This document shows, piece by piece, positions 29,973 through 42,490 of a DNA stretch of 64,000 nt (its first letter is position 1; each line of letters begins with the position of its first letter). The notes under the pieces are model-generated. The model did no database searches and had not been told where the DNA came from. It saw nothing but the letters and a program-made list of their open reading frames with translations. This DNA comes from a virus, in IMG/VR virus record IMGVR_UViG_3300025789_001072, positions 1 through 64,000 of that record; one strand, written 5' to 3'. The position numbers and the translations under genes are program-made.

Positions 29973-30386
29973 TCAACTCCATCGCATTACAAAGTGTGTT
30001 AAATCTTCTGCTCGCTTAAACTTAAAAACAAACACGGTTGGCTCTAAACTTATTAGTGTAATATTATTTGCTACAATATCGTTGGCTTCCGACCATGATG
30101 TTTTTTCAGGATTGTCAATGTTTTCTGAAACCCATTGTCGTATTTCAAGATATAATTCTTTAATAGTAGATACATGAGCACCTTCAACAATTGTAACATT
30201 AGCCTGATGTTTATACCTGTAATTAATATATTTGGCAAGCACCCACGATTTGCAGTCTTTTAATTTGCTACGCCAGTTATTCCTATGAATATCAAATCCT
30301 ACTGCAATCATGGCACATACACCGTAGCATACAACCATGATTGCATCAGTTGCAACAACCCAATAAGGTATTTCAATAACCAACAT
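29973..30386 (-). CDS. Membrane protein with C-terminal FVMRW motif
   Basis: A 137-residue protein with an N-terminal membrane segment (about residues 8-30) and a soluble domain ending AEDLTHFVMRWS, the same ending as its two downstream neighbours. Stop and start overlap with the RNA ligase gene. Confidence 0.65.
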   Translation of the reverse strand: MLVIEIPYWVVATDAIMVVCYGVCAMIAVGFDIHRNNWRSKLKDCKSWVLAKYINYRYKHQANVTIVEGAHVSTIKELYLEIRQWVSENIDNPEKTSWSEANDIVANNITLISLEPTVFVFKFKRAEDLTHFVMRWS

Positions 30387-31567
30387 TAGGCATCGCCCTC
30401 AAAGTGATAAGTCCAACGGAATGAACCCCATAGTGAACGGGCTTCATCTACTTTGGTCTGGCTACCAAGATGCTTGCGGATCAAGTCCAACACCATCTTG
30501 CGAGTATCCTTACCATCAAACTTACCAAACACAATGTTACCAACGAAAGCATCTTGTGCCTTGATAGTAGGAAGCCATTCTAAGGCAAACCGCTTACGAT
30601 CCATGTCATGTGCTAGCACCGTGTCGTAGTATTGGTCATATGACTTGATGACTTGGGCAACACCCATCCAAAAGTCAGTTTCAAATTCTTCAACACGCTT
30701 GCGGTCATCATCTAACATGAACGCCTTAGCATCATCCATCTTTTCTTCAACAAGAAGTTCAATGATGTTCTTCTCGTGAAGCAGATGATCTTTAGTCTTG
30801 TGAATACGCAGATACCATTCACCCTTGCACTTGACCATGTGACCATCGTCAAAGCGAACGATGTAACCTTCAATGCCTTCGGCATCACGAGTTTCATCCA
30901 TAAGGTGTGCCATAGATTCTGCAGAACCTTGATAAGTCTGCACTACTTCTATGTCAAACATATCACCGTATTCTTGCAACCATTGTAGGCTTGCATACAC
31001 ACCGCTATCCTTGCGACGAGCAGCAATCAACACAAGACGATCTTCTGGATAATCAACCACAATACGCTGCTTGCGTGAGCACCATTCAAATATAAGAGTA
31101 TAACCACATGATTGATCTGCCCAACGAATGAACTGTTCATACTGTGGGCGTGTTGCTATAAACTCTTCTGCTTGCATAGAGACTTCTGTAATCCCCATTT
31201 TGGTGCCAAGTCGCAATCCACCATCGGTGAATACGCCAGTTATCATAGAGCCGTCTAACTTCTCCAAGATAACATGTGGCTGCGTGAAGTCAATCACACC
31301 AAACTGCGTTTCATCACGCTCACCGATGTTGAAGAACTTGTGCAAACGACGAGCCATGATAGAGCCGTCCTTGTGGAACAGCATACCACGACATTCACGG
31401 CGGACTGCATCTATCTCCGTTTCAACAGGCGGAAAGGTATCGGTCATAGATACAATGTAGTTGACTATATAGCCCCAATCACGCTCTGCAATGATAAATT
31501 CATCACGACCTTCAATAGCAGGACGAACCTGATCAAGGTGAGTGATACGGGGAAATTCGTAGTGCAT
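30386..31567 (-). CDS. rnlA: RNA ligase 1 (T4 Rnl1-like)
   Basis: A 393-residue ATP-dependent RNA ligase, close to T4 Rnl1 in size and motif order. The nucleotidyl lysine lies in EKLDGS (K103); motif Ia/III-like segments RRECRGMLF upstream and LIFEWCS, EGIEGYIVRF and a distal KCK (motif V) follow. T4 Rnl1 seals breaks in tRNA anticodon loops after end-healing by Pnkp; both Pnkp halves are encoded at 41-42.5 kb here. It starts the small-gene operon, with a strong sigma70-like promoter and AGGAG. Confidence 0.93.
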   Translation of the reverse strand: MHYEFPRITHLDQVRPAIEGRDEFIIAERDWGYIVNYIVSMTDTFPPVETEIDAVRRECRGMLFHKDGSIMARRLHKFFNIGERDETQFGVIDFTQPHVILEKLDGSMITGVFTDGGLRLGTKMGITEVSMQAEEFIATRPQYEQFIRWADQSCGYTLIFEWCSRKQRIVVDYPEDRLVLIAARRKDSGVYASLQWLQEYGDMFDIEVVQTYQGSAESMAHLMDETRDAEGIEGYIVRFDDGHMVKCKGEWYLRIHKTKDHLLHEKNIIELLVEEKMDDAKAFMLDDDRKRVEEFETDFWMGVAQVIKSYDQYYDTVLAHDMDRKRFALEWLPTIKAQDAFVGNIVFGKFDGKDTRKMVLDLIRKHLGSQTKVDEARSLWGSFRWTYHFEGDA

Positions 31568-32092: not shown

Positions 32093-32169
32093 TGGCGATC
32101 TCGGCAGGATTCGAACCTGCAACCTAAAGAGTAGAAATCTTTTGCACTGTCCAGTTGTGCTACGAGACC
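32093..32169 (-). tRNA. tRNA-Arg (anticodon UCU)
   Basis: Acceptor GGTCTCG/CGAGATC (one G-T), D-stem GCAC/GTGC with GG in the loop, anticodon stem AAAGA/TCTTT with loop TTTCTAC, T-arm GCAGG TTCGAAT CCTGC, discriminator G and encoded CCA. Reads AGA, a codon frequent in AT-rich phages. Confidence 0.95.
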
Positions 32170-35029: not shown

Positions 35030-35914
35030 ATGTGTATCATAGTGGCCAAGTATTTTGAAGGAACTGGTTGGGTCGGAGTAAAGAACCGAGATAGAAACTA
35101 TGTTCCTGATTTAAGTTTTATTAAAGTTAAAAATAATAATACCGAAACTTTATACTTTCATGATGATATTACAAAATATGTAGAAGGTATGAATGATAGT
35201 GGTATTTGTATTTTATCAGCATCGTTGATGGTGCTTGATGATGAAAAAGAAATCACTGTTCGCACTAAAACACCATCGAAAGATGGTGTAAAGATTAAGA
35301 AAGCACTTAAACTTACTGATATTAAAGCAGTTTGCATGAGTTTAATTAAACAAAAATTACCAGGCTGCACACTTATATTCAATCAAGAAGATTGCTATCT
35401 ACTTGAAGGTGCTTGGGCACCTGGTGGTTATGAAGATAAAGATTACAAATATAAGATTGAAAAGATTGAACACAATGAAACCGTTGCAAGAACTAATCAT
35501 GGTGTATGGTTAAAGTGGGCTGGCTATCAATATGGTGCGGACGATAACGAAAGCATGAGTGCTATTAGTAGTCGCAGTCGTTTGTTAATTGCGCAGCATG
35601 TTGTTGATAGCGCAGAAACACCTGCACAACTTATTGATTGGTTGACCAAAAAGTATGTTGATAATTGGCAGTTAAATGCCATGCGTTTAGCAGATGAAAA
35701 AAAGATGATGCGCACAACTGCACAACTTATGTTAGTGCCAAAAGATTTAACAATGTTTGTGCGTCCTATTCAAAGCAATATTAAGTTTAACTTTTGGAAA
35801 CTTAATGGCGCTAAGGATAATAAGATGTGGGTTGAATTGCTTACCAATCGTGTGCTACGCACTGGCGAAGATGATCCTGCTATTCCAACTAATCTTTCAC
35901 ATATTGAAGATTAA
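35030..35914 (+). CDS. Ntn-hydrolase family protein (C45/choloylglycine-like)
   Basis: A 294-residue protein starting MCIIVAKY with Cys2 as the likely N-terminal nucleophile, followed by GWVGVKNRDRNY, the NRD motif of Ntn amidohydrolases. ARTNHG in mid-protein fits the conserved Asn of the family. Such enzymes cleave or form amide bonds after Met removal. Substrate unknown. Convergent with the 83-residue gene (4-base overlap). Confidence 0.75.
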   Translation: MCIIVAKYFEGTGWVGVKNRDRNYVPDLSFIKVKNNNTETLYFHDDITKYVEGMNDSGICILSASLMVLDDEKEITVRTKTPSKDGVKIKKALKLTDIKAVCMSLIKQKLPGCTLIFNQEDCYLLEGAWAPGGYEDKDYKYKIEKIEHNETVARTNHGVWLKWAGYQYGADDNESMSAISSRSRLLIAQHVVDSAETPAQLIDWLTKKYVDNWQLNAMRLADEKKMMRTTAQLMLVPKDLTMFVRPIQSNIKFNFWKLNGAKDNKMWVELLTNRVLRTGEDDPAIPTNLSHIED

Positions 35915-36178: not shown

Positions 36179-36311
36179 TGGTGCGCTCTACCAGAATCGA
36201 ACTGGTACGCCGAAGCGAGAGATTTTACGGCGGAGATTCTGGATTTGAACCATAATGGGCGTTTACCCTTTCTCCGAAGTCTCTTGTGTCTACCTATTCC
36301 ACCAAGAGCGC
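36179..36311 (-). tRNA. tRNA-Leu (UAA), anticodon loop interrupted by 50 nt
   Basis: All parts of a tRNA-Leu are intact: acceptor GCGCTCT/AGAGCGC (7 perfect pairs), D-arm GTG/CAC with GG, anticodon stem AGAGA/TCTCT, variable arm CGC TTCG GCG, T-arm ACCAG TTCGATT CTGGT, discriminator A, encoded CCA. The anticodon loop is split: CTT or CT before the insert, AAAA or TAAAA after it. Removing 50 nt gives the normal loop CTTAAAA (anticodon UAA) and an 83-nt tRNA. The insertion point matches that of group I introns in cyanobacterial tRNA-Leu(UAA), next to U34, but the insert is far too short for a group I intron. Confidence 0.85.
36228..36277 (-). other. 50-nt tRNA-like insert in tRNA-Leu
   Basis: The insert (36277-36228 or 36276-36227, one-base ambiguity) folds like a D-armless mini-tRNA: CGGAGA/TCTCCG closing stem, a GGG/CCC hairpin, and a T-arm-like TGG TTCAAAT CCA with a canonical T-loop. 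Acceptor plus T-arm is the minimal RNase P substrate, so host tRNA-processing enzymes might excise it (inference). Confidence 0.7.
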
Positions 36312-36318
36312 ATTAGCC

Positions 36319-36606
36319 TTATTTTACACTTATACTATGTATGCTGTCAAGACGAAACGAACGCCATTCTTTAATATCGGTCACAAAAACTGCCAACGAT
36401 TTATCACTGACCTTGCGCTTTGGCATTTCAGTATCTTCGCTTTCTACGATAGGAGGCAACATCTCAGGATTAAGAGTGCAAGGCATCGTGCGTAGATCAC
36501 CATTGACTTTAGTAAAGGTTACTTCACAAATACCTTCATGCAACATACTACGCAGCATATCAATGCTTGGTTGAACATCCGCATTAAATTCAATATATGT
36601 TGGCAT
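36319..36606 (-). CDS. WYL_2/Sm-like SH3 beta-barrel protein (DUF2693-like)
   Basis: A 95-residue protein with LRSMLHEGICEVTFTKVNGDLRTMPCTLNP and a C-terminal EWRSFRLDSI, the pattern of the small phage SH3-like WYL_2 family. A nucleic-acid or ligand-binding role is likely but unproven. Lies between two tRNA genes. Confidence 0.75.
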   Translation of the reverse strand: MPTYIEFNADVQPSIDMLRSMLHEGICEVTFTKVNGDLRTMPCTLNPEMLPPIVESEDTEMPKRKVSDKSLAVFVTDIKEWRSFRLDSIHSISVK

Positions 36607-36624: not shown

Positions 36625-36700
36625 TGGTGGGCAGTGAGGGACTCAAACCCCCGATCAAATTCTTATGAGGAACCGGCTTTAGTCGCTAAGCTAACCGCCC
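36625..36700 (-). tRNA. tRNA with CAU anticodon (Met, possibly Ile2)
   Basis: Acceptor GGGCGGT/ACTGCCC (one G-T), anticodon stem GGTTC/GAATT with loop CTCATAA, T-loop TTTGAGT, discriminator A, encoded CCA. The D-loop AGCGACTA lacks the usual GG. Initiator, elongator or lysidine-type Ile cannot be decided by eye. Confidence 0.88.
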
Positions 36701-41330: not shown

Positions 41331-41358
41331 AATATAACATGGATTTAGGGTTTGTCAA
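41331..41358 (-). promoter_or_regulatory. Sigma70-like promoter of SprT-helicase-methylase operon
   Basis: TTGACA, 16-base spacer, TATATT on the minus strand, inside the 3' end of the kinase gene. Confidence 0.78.
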
Positions 41359-41815
41359 GCATTATTATTTCGTCAAATCCCTCACTCAGATGAGGCATTT
41401 CAAGATGTTCAATCATGCTATCAATAACATTTTGCGGTATCTTCTTGCCCCAACGACTGTCCAATCGGCGTTGCAATTCGGCCTCATCTGGCGTAGGAAA
41501 AAATACCCCAACCTTGATCCAATCCTTGGGTAGCCGTGCCAACCGCAACTTGCGGTGCTTGGCTACCGTGTTGGTTTGATCCCATACAAGCGTCTTGTCC
41601 AAATTGATAGCCATCTGCACTTGCGAGTCACAAAACTTTTGTGCATAGCCAATAGCCTGACTAAACATTTGGTCATAGGTCTTGCCAGCCTTGGCAGCGA
41701 CAGTTTCAATATAAGCATCGCTAGACGCAATGATTGCGTCTTCAAAACCTTGCTTTGTAATCCACGTTGACTTGCCGGAACCTGGCACACCAATTAACAT
41801 ATAACACTTTGTCAT
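41345..41815 (-). CDS. Polynucleotide 5'-kinase domain (Pnkp N-terminal half)
   Basis: A 156-residue P-loop kinase: GVPGSGKSTW at 9-18, like the start of T4 PseT. WDQTNTVAKHRK and RLDSRWGKKIP give the lid/substrate regions. It lacks the phosphatase half that T4 PseT has; that half is a separate gene at 42041. It would phosphorylate RNA 5'-OH ends before ligation. A general AAA_33 kinase is the alternative. Confidence 0.82.
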   Translation of the reverse strand: MTKCYMLIGVPGSGKSTWITKQGFEDAIIASSDAYIETVAAKAGKTYDQMFSQAIGYAQKFCDSQVQMAINLDKTLVWDQTNTVAKHRKLRLARLPKDWIKVGVFFPTPDEAELQRRLDSRWGKKIPQNVIDSMIEHLEMPHLSEGFDEIIMLDKP

Positions 41816-42040: not shown

Positions 42041-42490
42041 TCAAAAATTACCTTCGGCAACCTGCAACACACGAACGCCACATGCACGGATGGCATCAAC
42101 AACCTGATTACGGTCATCAAACCACAGCCAAGGCTCGCCAAAGTCGCTACGGATTTGGTCAAACAATTCTACTTTGACAATGCTATCCTTGCGATAGTCC
42201 CTTTCCGCTCGCATGTAAAGCCGCTTGTATGGAACGGTATGCGTTGCCAACCACTTCTCGGTTACCGCACGAGTTTCCTCGCCACGACCGCTGCAAAAGA
42301 TGATAATGTCGCCCCGTGAATGAAACACATCCAACAGCAATGAGATGTCTGCATGAACAGTGTCATTTGCCATACCAGCGTTCCAAGCAGCCCAGTTCTT
42401 TGGCTTGCTTGCAACCCAATGCTTGCGGTGTTCAGTGTTGGCAATCGTGCCATCAATGTCACATACGATAATCTTGTTCACTTTAACCAT
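42041..42490 (-). CDS. Polynucleotide 3'-phosphatase domain (Pnkp C-terminal half)
   Basis: A 149-residue HAD phosphatase: VCDIDGTIAN (nucleophile Asp), SGRGEETR (motif II), YRKDSIVK (motif III Lys) and WLWFDDRNQVVD (motif IV). The order and the FDDRxQVV segment match the 3'-phosphatase domain of T4 Pnkp. It would remove 3'-phosphates or 2',3'-cyclic phosphates at broken tRNAs. Encoded apart from the kinase. Confidence 0.88.
   Translation of the reverse strand: MVKVNKIIVCDIDGTIANTEHRKHWVASKPKNWAAWNAGMANDTVHADISLLLDVFHSRGDIIIFCSGRGEETRAVTEKWLATHTVPYKRLYMRAERDYRKDSIVKVELFDQIRSDFGEPWLWFDDRNQVVDAIRACGVRVLQVAEGNF

Follow-up and report, generated by a model that had tools for sequence, protein, structure and literature searches.

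tRNA-like elements nested in the anticodon loops of phage tRNAs look like an undescribed kind of intron

Introduction

In phage T4, tRNA-Lys nicked in its anticodon loop by PrrC is repaired by Pnkp and sealed by Rnl1. The minimal substrate of RNase P consists of an acceptor stem, a T-arm and a 3' CCA, and the site between positions 34 and 35 is the classical group I intron site of cyanobacterial and plastid tRNA-Leu(UAA). Archaeal and eukaryotic tRNA introns depend on a splicing endonuclease and a bulge-helix-bulge motif and are mostly located one nucleotide 3' of the anticodon (PMC4090602). As for phages, the introns observed up to the time of one review were all in protein genes, despite the many tRNA genes of these viruses (PMC3984707). 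The RNA ligases of jumbo phages have been discussed as repair of host-inflicted damage (PMC7824862), and changes in the anticodon loop of phage tRNAs as evasion of nucleases (PMC10264068). Here, a tRNA-Leu(UAA) gene with a tRNA-like element nested in its anticodon loop is described in a phage from the IMG/VR database. The DNA analysed, hereafter the window, comprises positions 1 to 64,000 of the 130,704-base pair (bp) record IMGVR_UViG_3300025789_001072.

The locus shares features with each of these systems. As in T4 tRNA repair, there are two tRNA halves and a break in the anticodon loop, and the window phage encodes a two-domain Rnl1, a Pnkp phosphatase and a kinase; however, the T4 break comes from a host nuclease, whereas here it would be programmed by the insert in the gene. 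Like archaeal and eukaryotic introns, the insert lies in the anticodon loop and would require two cuts and one ligation, but it is itself tRNA-like, belongs to a class found at sites from 34/35 to 36/37, has tRNA-defined ends and shows no sign of a bulge-helix-bulge. The insertion at 34/35 is shared with the group I introns of tRNA-Leu(UAA) (reviewed in PMC3984707), although the insert has no ribozyme and only 50 nucleotides (nt). The smallest inserts of the class retain exactly the parts of a minimal RNase P substrate, which in this case sits within another tRNA. Finally, as for permuted and split tRNA genes, the mature tRNA would be made from separated halves, but these are in normal order with a tRNA-like element between them.

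Results and discussion

The composite tRNA-Leu(UAA) gene

The composite gene occupies 36179..36311 on the minus strand, where all the parts described below are also located. Read from 36311 to 36179, it is a class II tRNA-Leu(UAA) with all its parts intact and a 50-nt tRNA-like insert in the anticodon loop. The Rfam tRNA model RF00005 matched 36311-36182(-) with 40.9 bits over the full model, above its gathering score of 29, covering model positions 1-71 with a 53-nt skip in the anticodon loop. ARAGORN, run on the window, missed the gene. The outer tRNA presents a 7-bp acceptor stem (GCGCTCT/AGAGCGC), A73 and an encoded CCA, together with a 5-bp anticodon stem, a long variable arm and a 5-bp T-stem. 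The 5' exon (36277..36311) carries the 5' strand of the acceptor, the D-arm, the 5' strand of the anticodon stem and C32 U33 U34, and the 3' exon (36179..36226) carries A35 A36 A37 A38, the 3' strand of the anticodon stem, the variable arm, the T-arm, the 3' acceptor strand and ACCA. Besides the sequence and the Rfam match, these limits are supported by alignment, for the 5' exon to the intron-less tRNA-Leu genes of Ochrobactrum phage vB_OspM_OC (83 nt) and of contig L005. The interrupted loop reads CTT/50 nt/AAAA, and deletion of the insert leaves CTTAAAA with the anticodon UAA. With T as the last base of the insert, the junction can be placed at either 33/34 or 34/35.

The insert (36227..36276) corresponds to tRNA positions 1 to 76 without the D-arm, following a rule common to about 50 other cases. 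Its 5' acceptor strand CGGAGAA (36270..36276) forms six of seven pairs with the 3' strand ATCTCCG (36231..36237), the GGGTAAACGCCC hairpin (36257..36268) replaces the D and anticodon arms, and the T-arm is TATGG-TTCAAAT-CCAGA (36238..36254). The tail CCGT (36227..36230) stands in place of N73-CCA, at the site of NCCA in other inserts. Folding the insert by itself predicted this structure, as did the centroid fold of the complete gene. The original prediction, which had read the locus as an intact tRNA-Leu with encoded CCA, split next to U34 by a D-armless tRNA-like element, is therefore borne out by the sequence, the Rfam score and the folds. The folding energy of the insert by itself is not significant (z about -1.7), so its significance rests on comparison, that is, on conservation in the family and on the roughly 50 parallel cases.

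Conservation and empty sites

Relatives of the window phage were retrieved through a neighbouring protein and through the insert pattern. The nested gene is also present in L002, a contig of the same phage, and in three divergent contigs from other samples (L008, L011 and L012). The 133-nt gene is 98.5-100% identical in these four contigs, whereas its flanks are only 72-85% identical. Compared with L008, L011 and L012, the window shows 0, 1 and 2 differences in the nested gene, while identity is 77-80% for the adjoining gene (36319-36606) and 77-84% for the gene at 35030-35914; in L008, this means 0 differences in 133 nt versus 59 in 288 nt of the adjoining gene. The insert is conserved to the same degree as the surrounding tRNA. 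Taken together, these alignments indicate that the nested gene is under constraint.

Only two of the 133 positions vary: one is a linker base, the other is position 59 of the inner T-loop (TTCAAAT/TTCAAGT), where L012 carries the A/G variation. A T-loop change at position 59 is normal for tRNAs. Covariation within the window's own family was uninformative, since its two substitutions are both at unpaired positions.

Other relatives carry intron-less tRNAs at the same place. The tRNA-Leu of phage vB_OspM_OC is 86.5% identical over the matched exon parts. Random decay of the insert in related genomes, named beforehand as a sign against an intron, was looked for and not found. The reading of the locus as a nested tRNA intron is supported, since the insert is as conserved as the tRNA that surrounds it, empty sites exist and the arrangement recurs in many unrelated tRNAs. 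An assembly artefact was ruled out by the presence of the insert in independent samples and of analogous inserts in isolate genomes. At the same locus, L004 (9149-9225), L006 (9793-9869), L007 (6649-6725) and L009 (9144-9220) encode a 77-nt tRNA with the anticodon UAA and a short variable loop, which is unusual for tRNA-Leu.

A class of nested tRNAs

IMG/VR and bacterial and archaeal genomes were scanned with spacing patterns in which an inner T-arm lies 30-50 nt upstream of the outer T-arm, a distance chosen because ordinary tandem tRNAs cannot produce it. A script then kept only anticodon-loop inserts flanked by an intact outer tRNA and sought tRNA-like structure within them. It yielded 53 distinct sequences, or 50 once near-duplicates were removed; L149, L059 and L180 are doubtful members. 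The outer isotypes are Leu(UAA), Asn, Lys, Thr, Arg(UCU, CCU), Gln, Ile, Met, Phe, Tyr and Gly, and the insertion sites are 34/35, 35/36 or 36/37, always in the anticodon loop. In bacterial and archaeal genomes, only L445, L449, L472 and probably L441 are of this kind, all of them in metagenome-assembled bins, and these may be phage contigs.

At one extreme of the inner elements is a complete tRNA-Phe(GAA) (L102), and at the other are minis with acceptor and T-arm, such as that of the window; between them lie tRNAs whose anticodon loop has 4 nt (L250) or whose anticodon arm is missing (L258). The inner elements often lack parts needed for translation, the minis lacking any anticodon arm, yet acceptor and T-arm are retained. 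In one subclass, a 24-33-nt 5' leader hairpin (loop GAGTAAAC or similar) precedes the inner tRNA and the insertion is near 36/37; its members are L156 2928-3094 and 3871-4021, L219 4191-4347, L166 1421-1589, L240 783-927, L050 6371-6532, L492 and L493. The window gene is not a single oddity, but part of a class with full-length, D-armless and leader-bearing versions. In L102 (4972-5120), the complete tRNA-Phe(GAA) lies within a tRNA-Arg(UCU), so that one locus holds two potentially functional tRNAs. A still smaller insert, of 35 nt, was observed in the tRNA-Gly(UCC) of L513 18848-18952 (record G005), which reads CTTCC/CGAGAA...TTCTCG-ACCA/AA and has a short hairpin in place of the T-arm.

The class is also present in cultured phages. 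In the Sinorhizobium phages phiM12, phiM7 and phiM19, tRNA-Asn(GUU) has the form CTGT/46 nt/TAA. The phiM12 gene (KF381361.1 94960-95076, equal to L477 2996-3112) is annotated as 'tRNA-OTHER' and flagged as a pseudogene, and those of phiM7 and phiM19 are annotated as 'tRNA-Thr'. Ochrobactrum phage ORM_20 carries the same tRNA-Asn without insert, and the gap in its alignment to phiM12 is exactly the insert. Salicola phage SCTP-2 presents a tRNA-Asn with a 45-nt insert.

Many matches to the spacing pattern were an ordinary tRNA followed by an orphan T-arm; these are not nested tRNAs and were set aside. Among them, in L164, L170, L171, L190, L193, L196, L234, L238 and others, an orphan 3' tRNA half (a portion of the anticodon stem, T-arm and acceptor strand) comes immediately after an ordinary tRNA, with no evident 5' half within 260 nt. 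These halves could be split or permuted tRNAs, or remnants.

Geometry of the inserts

The ends of the inserts are those of a tRNA. In a set of 52 distinct outer tRNAs whose loop insert contains a T-arm hairpin, a 5' acceptor partner (7 nt, forming at least 6 pairs with the inner 3' acceptor strand) was located at loop offsets 3, 4 and 5 in 12, 21 and 6 cases, respectively, versus at most 3 cases at any other offset tested. This test used the outer tRNA and the inner T-arm alone, and the offset was not imposed by the search. It replaced class-wide pair counts, which were excluded as evidence because inner pairing formed part of the selection. Inserts usually run from tRNA position 1 to 73 or 76, often with an encoded CCA, and mostly end at N73 or N73+3, with NCCA ends in 15 distinct inserts; once the insert is taken out, the loop has 7 nt and a sensible anticodon. 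The window gene follows this rule, with an intact outer tRNA, a tRNA-like insert in the anticodon loop only, ends at the expected positions and a 7-nt remaining loop, apart from having CCGT for NCCA.

Furthermore, the type of 3' end tracks the outer tRNA. Inserts ending in NCCA lie in outer tRNAs with an encoded CCA in 13 cases and without it in 2, whereas those ending at N73 or N73+1 do so in 2 and 9 cases, respectively (Fisher p=0.0009). In L298 (7901-8020) and L299 (3357-3476), CCA is encoded by the insert but not by the outer tRNA, which is what insertion of a mature tRNA at the RNA level would be expected to produce.

Regarding site specificity, inserts in other parts of the tRNA are rare or absent: a matched pattern scan found 69 stretches for the anticodon loop versus 1 for the variable loop. 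The same code applied to the collected loci, which were partly preselected for anticodon-loop inserts, gave 4 for the D-loop and 4 for the variable loop versus 76, and all of those eight were by eye chance combinations of tandem tRNAs. Reversed or complemented sequences gave 0 matches, and block-shuffled sequences gave 3, 0 and 0.

Nested tRNAs within phage tRNA sets

The nested gene is the only tRNA-Leu found in the window's phage. More widely, 13 records hold 22 well-supported nested tRNAs, 16 of which serve an amino acid without an ordinary tRNA in the same record (expected 6.8, P about 1e-5, an approximate value that assumes equal isotype frequencies and includes partly incomplete genomes). 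The 332-kilobase record G005 has four nested tRNAs, Gln(UUG), Thr(UGU), Arg(UCU) and Gly(UCC), all of which except Arg are for otherwise missing amino acids. The outer tRNAs are thus genuine components of the phages' tRNA sets.

RNA ligase, end-healing enzymes and neighbouring genes

On the minus strand at 30386..31567, the window encodes a 393-amino-acid homologue of T4 RNA ligase 1, the proposed sealing enzyme. Both the nucleotidyltransferase domain (PF09511, 87.4 bits) and the Rnl1 C-terminal domain (PF20819, 30.6 bits) were found above cut-off, as in T4-type tRNA repair. It matches the T4 Rnl1 structures 5tt6, 9do4 and 2c5u in the Protein Data Bank (PDB) with E values from 3e-26 to 4e-27, and the KxDG motif is aligned (EKLDGS versus TKEDGS of T4). 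A Pnkp-type 3' phosphatase for end healing (HAD_PNKP; 42041..42490, minus strand) was identified by PF25109 (110.7 bits) and by PDB matches to Pnkp1 (4xrp) and polynucleotide kinase (1ltq). The P-loop kinase of the AAA_33 family at 41345..41815 on the minus strand (PF13671, 59.8 bits) is a probable polynucleotide 5'-kinase from its domain; a PDB search with it gave no match. In L011 and L012 the ligase is kept adjoining the tRNA cluster, and Rnl1 and Rnl2 are both present in phiM12, phiM7 and SCTP-2. RtcB was detected in only 1 of 36 nested records.

The nearest neighbour in the tRNA cluster is an ordinary tRNA-Met(CAU) (36625..36700, minus strand), and the window has further ordinary tRNAs at 32093 (Arg), 32577 (Ser), 33408 (Val) and 61006 (Gln), all found by ARAGORN and Rfam. 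ARAGORN also reported transfer-messenger RNA (tmRNA) genes, marked tmRNA with an asterisk, in the window's phage (L488 17547-17927, G000 81547-81927) and in a relative (L026 5804-6200).

Proposed splicing mechanism and its alternatives

From these comparisons we infer the excision, the ligation and the enzymes responsible. It seems reasonably probable that RNase P and tRNA 3'-end nucleases cut out the intron and that a phage RNA ligase then joins the exons. The gene would give a precursor with a tRNA-like bundle of hairpins in the anticodon loop of tRNA-Leu(UAA), and the maturation machinery would recognise this insert as a tRNA. RNase P would cut at position 1 of the insert, immediately behind U34, and RNase Z, or an endo- or exonuclease that tolerates CCA, would cut behind the 3' end of the insert. 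Acting on an acceptor/T-arm substrate, RNase P and the tRNA 3'-end nucleases would cut precisely where the inserts are seen to end; they leave 3'-OH and 5'-phosphate ends, which T4-type ligases join, and the natural substrate of T4 Rnl1 is a nicked anticodon loop. The 5' half of the tRNA-Leu would thus carry a 3'-OH and the 3' half a 5'-phosphate, and the halves, held together by the acceptor and anticodon stems, would be joined by a phage ligase of the Rnl1 or Rnl2 type, giving the predicted 83-nt spliced tRNA-Leu.

Several observations weigh against this proposal. About 10 inserts, including that of the window, end in a 4-nt tail other than NCCA; such tails are at odds with RNase Z simply cutting behind N73 and would call for additional trimming or for cleavage after position 76. 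The leader-bearing subclass requires an extra processing step to free the 5' exon of the leader. Moreover, 3 of the 22 nested tRNAs duplicate an ordinary tRNA (G014, G015 and G016). An RNA ligase was found in 14 of 22 large nested-tRNA records versus 23 of 47 large tRNA-rich controls, which is not a significant enrichment (Fisher p=0.31); several nested records show no RNA ligase, so that sealing would there fall to a ligase of the host or to one that escaped detection. The ligase step is plausible, not proven by co-occurrence, and host ligases may serve in some of these phages.

The tails also bear on an alternative that we regard as unlikely, in which a phage or host endonuclease, similar to an anticodon nuclease, cuts at both junctions and leaves a cyclic phosphate and a 5'-OH, to be healed by Pnkp and sealed by the ligase, with the tRNA-like shape serving only for folding or recognition. 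The non-CCA tails would fit it, and so would the Pnkp phosphatase and the kinase that the window phage has besides Rnl1, which would be unneeded after RNase P and RNase Z cuts. Nevertheless, inserts whose ends fall on tRNA positions 1 and 73/76 and whose CCA status matches that of the outer tRNA are best explained by tRNA-end enzymes, and healing enzymes are common in tRNA-rich phages for the repair of host-inflicted cuts (PMC7824862). The inner tRNA could instead be the product of a co-transcribed pair in which the outer one is sacrificed, either by insertion of a tRNA into a tRNA gene or by decay. The complete tRNA-Phe(GAA) of L102 and other nearly complete inner elements agree with this, but most have no usable anticodon, only the anticodon loop is affected, and the outer tRNAs are well paired, supply missing isotypes and are conserved together with the insert, which makes it improbable. 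Slightly less credit is given to use of the composite RNA unspliced, for example to decoy host anticodon nucleases or to act in regulation. The anticodon is indeed split and hence hidden, and phage tRNAs have been proposed to evade anticodon nucleases through changes in the anticodon loop (PMC10264068); a decoy, however, needs neither an exact 7-nt remaining loop with a sensible anticodon nor complementarity to the tRNA set.

A degenerate group I intron or another self-splicing element is extremely improbable. The original prediction had rejected a group I intron by size and an archaeal intron by position. The size argument stands, as the roughly 50 nt fall far short of a group I core (a P3-P8 ribozyme core of more than 200 nt), and it is reinforced by the tRNA-like structure, by ten other isotypes with sites also at 35/36 and 36/37, and by the Rfam search of the window, which gave tRNA matches only and no intron match. 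Position alone does not separate the insert from a group I relic, since 34/35 of tRNA-Leu(UAA) is a known group I site. With respect to archaeal-type introns, inspection of the folds revealed no bulge-helix-bulge at the junctions: the insert helix begins directly at the 5' junction and the 3' side is unpaired, without a 3-nt bulge, 4-bp helix and 3-nt bulge.

Returning to excision by tRNA-end enzymes, we lean towards regarding the whole class as neither self-splicing nor dependent on a splicing endonuclease, but as a tRNA within a tRNA that is excised by RNase P and a 3'-end enzyme and sealed by a phage RNA-repair ligase, so that splicing would depend on the phage's own ligase. Its origin may lie at the RNA level, if, once a host nuclease has cut an anticodon loop, a ligase inserts a mature tRNA with its CCA at the break and the product is then captured as DNA.

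Conclusions

Nested phage tRNAs look like an undescribed kind of intron. The original prediction knew of no such case; no description was found in the open-access literature either, with preprints and subscription journals outside the search and priority not certain, and the case is not a one-off, as about 50 distinct tRNAs share the arrangement. If the proposed mechanism is true, it would be a further way of tRNA splicing, made from enzymes present in every bacterium, and phage RNA ligases would have a routine role in making phage tRNAs, beyond the usual explanation of repair after host attack. It would also account for phage tRNA genes that are annotated as pseudogenes or mis-called, such as the 'tRNA-OTHER' of phiM12 and the 'tRNA-Thr' of phiM7. 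In addition, it suggests a route by which introns arise from mis-repaired RNA, and a cultured S. meliloti phage makes the class directly testable.
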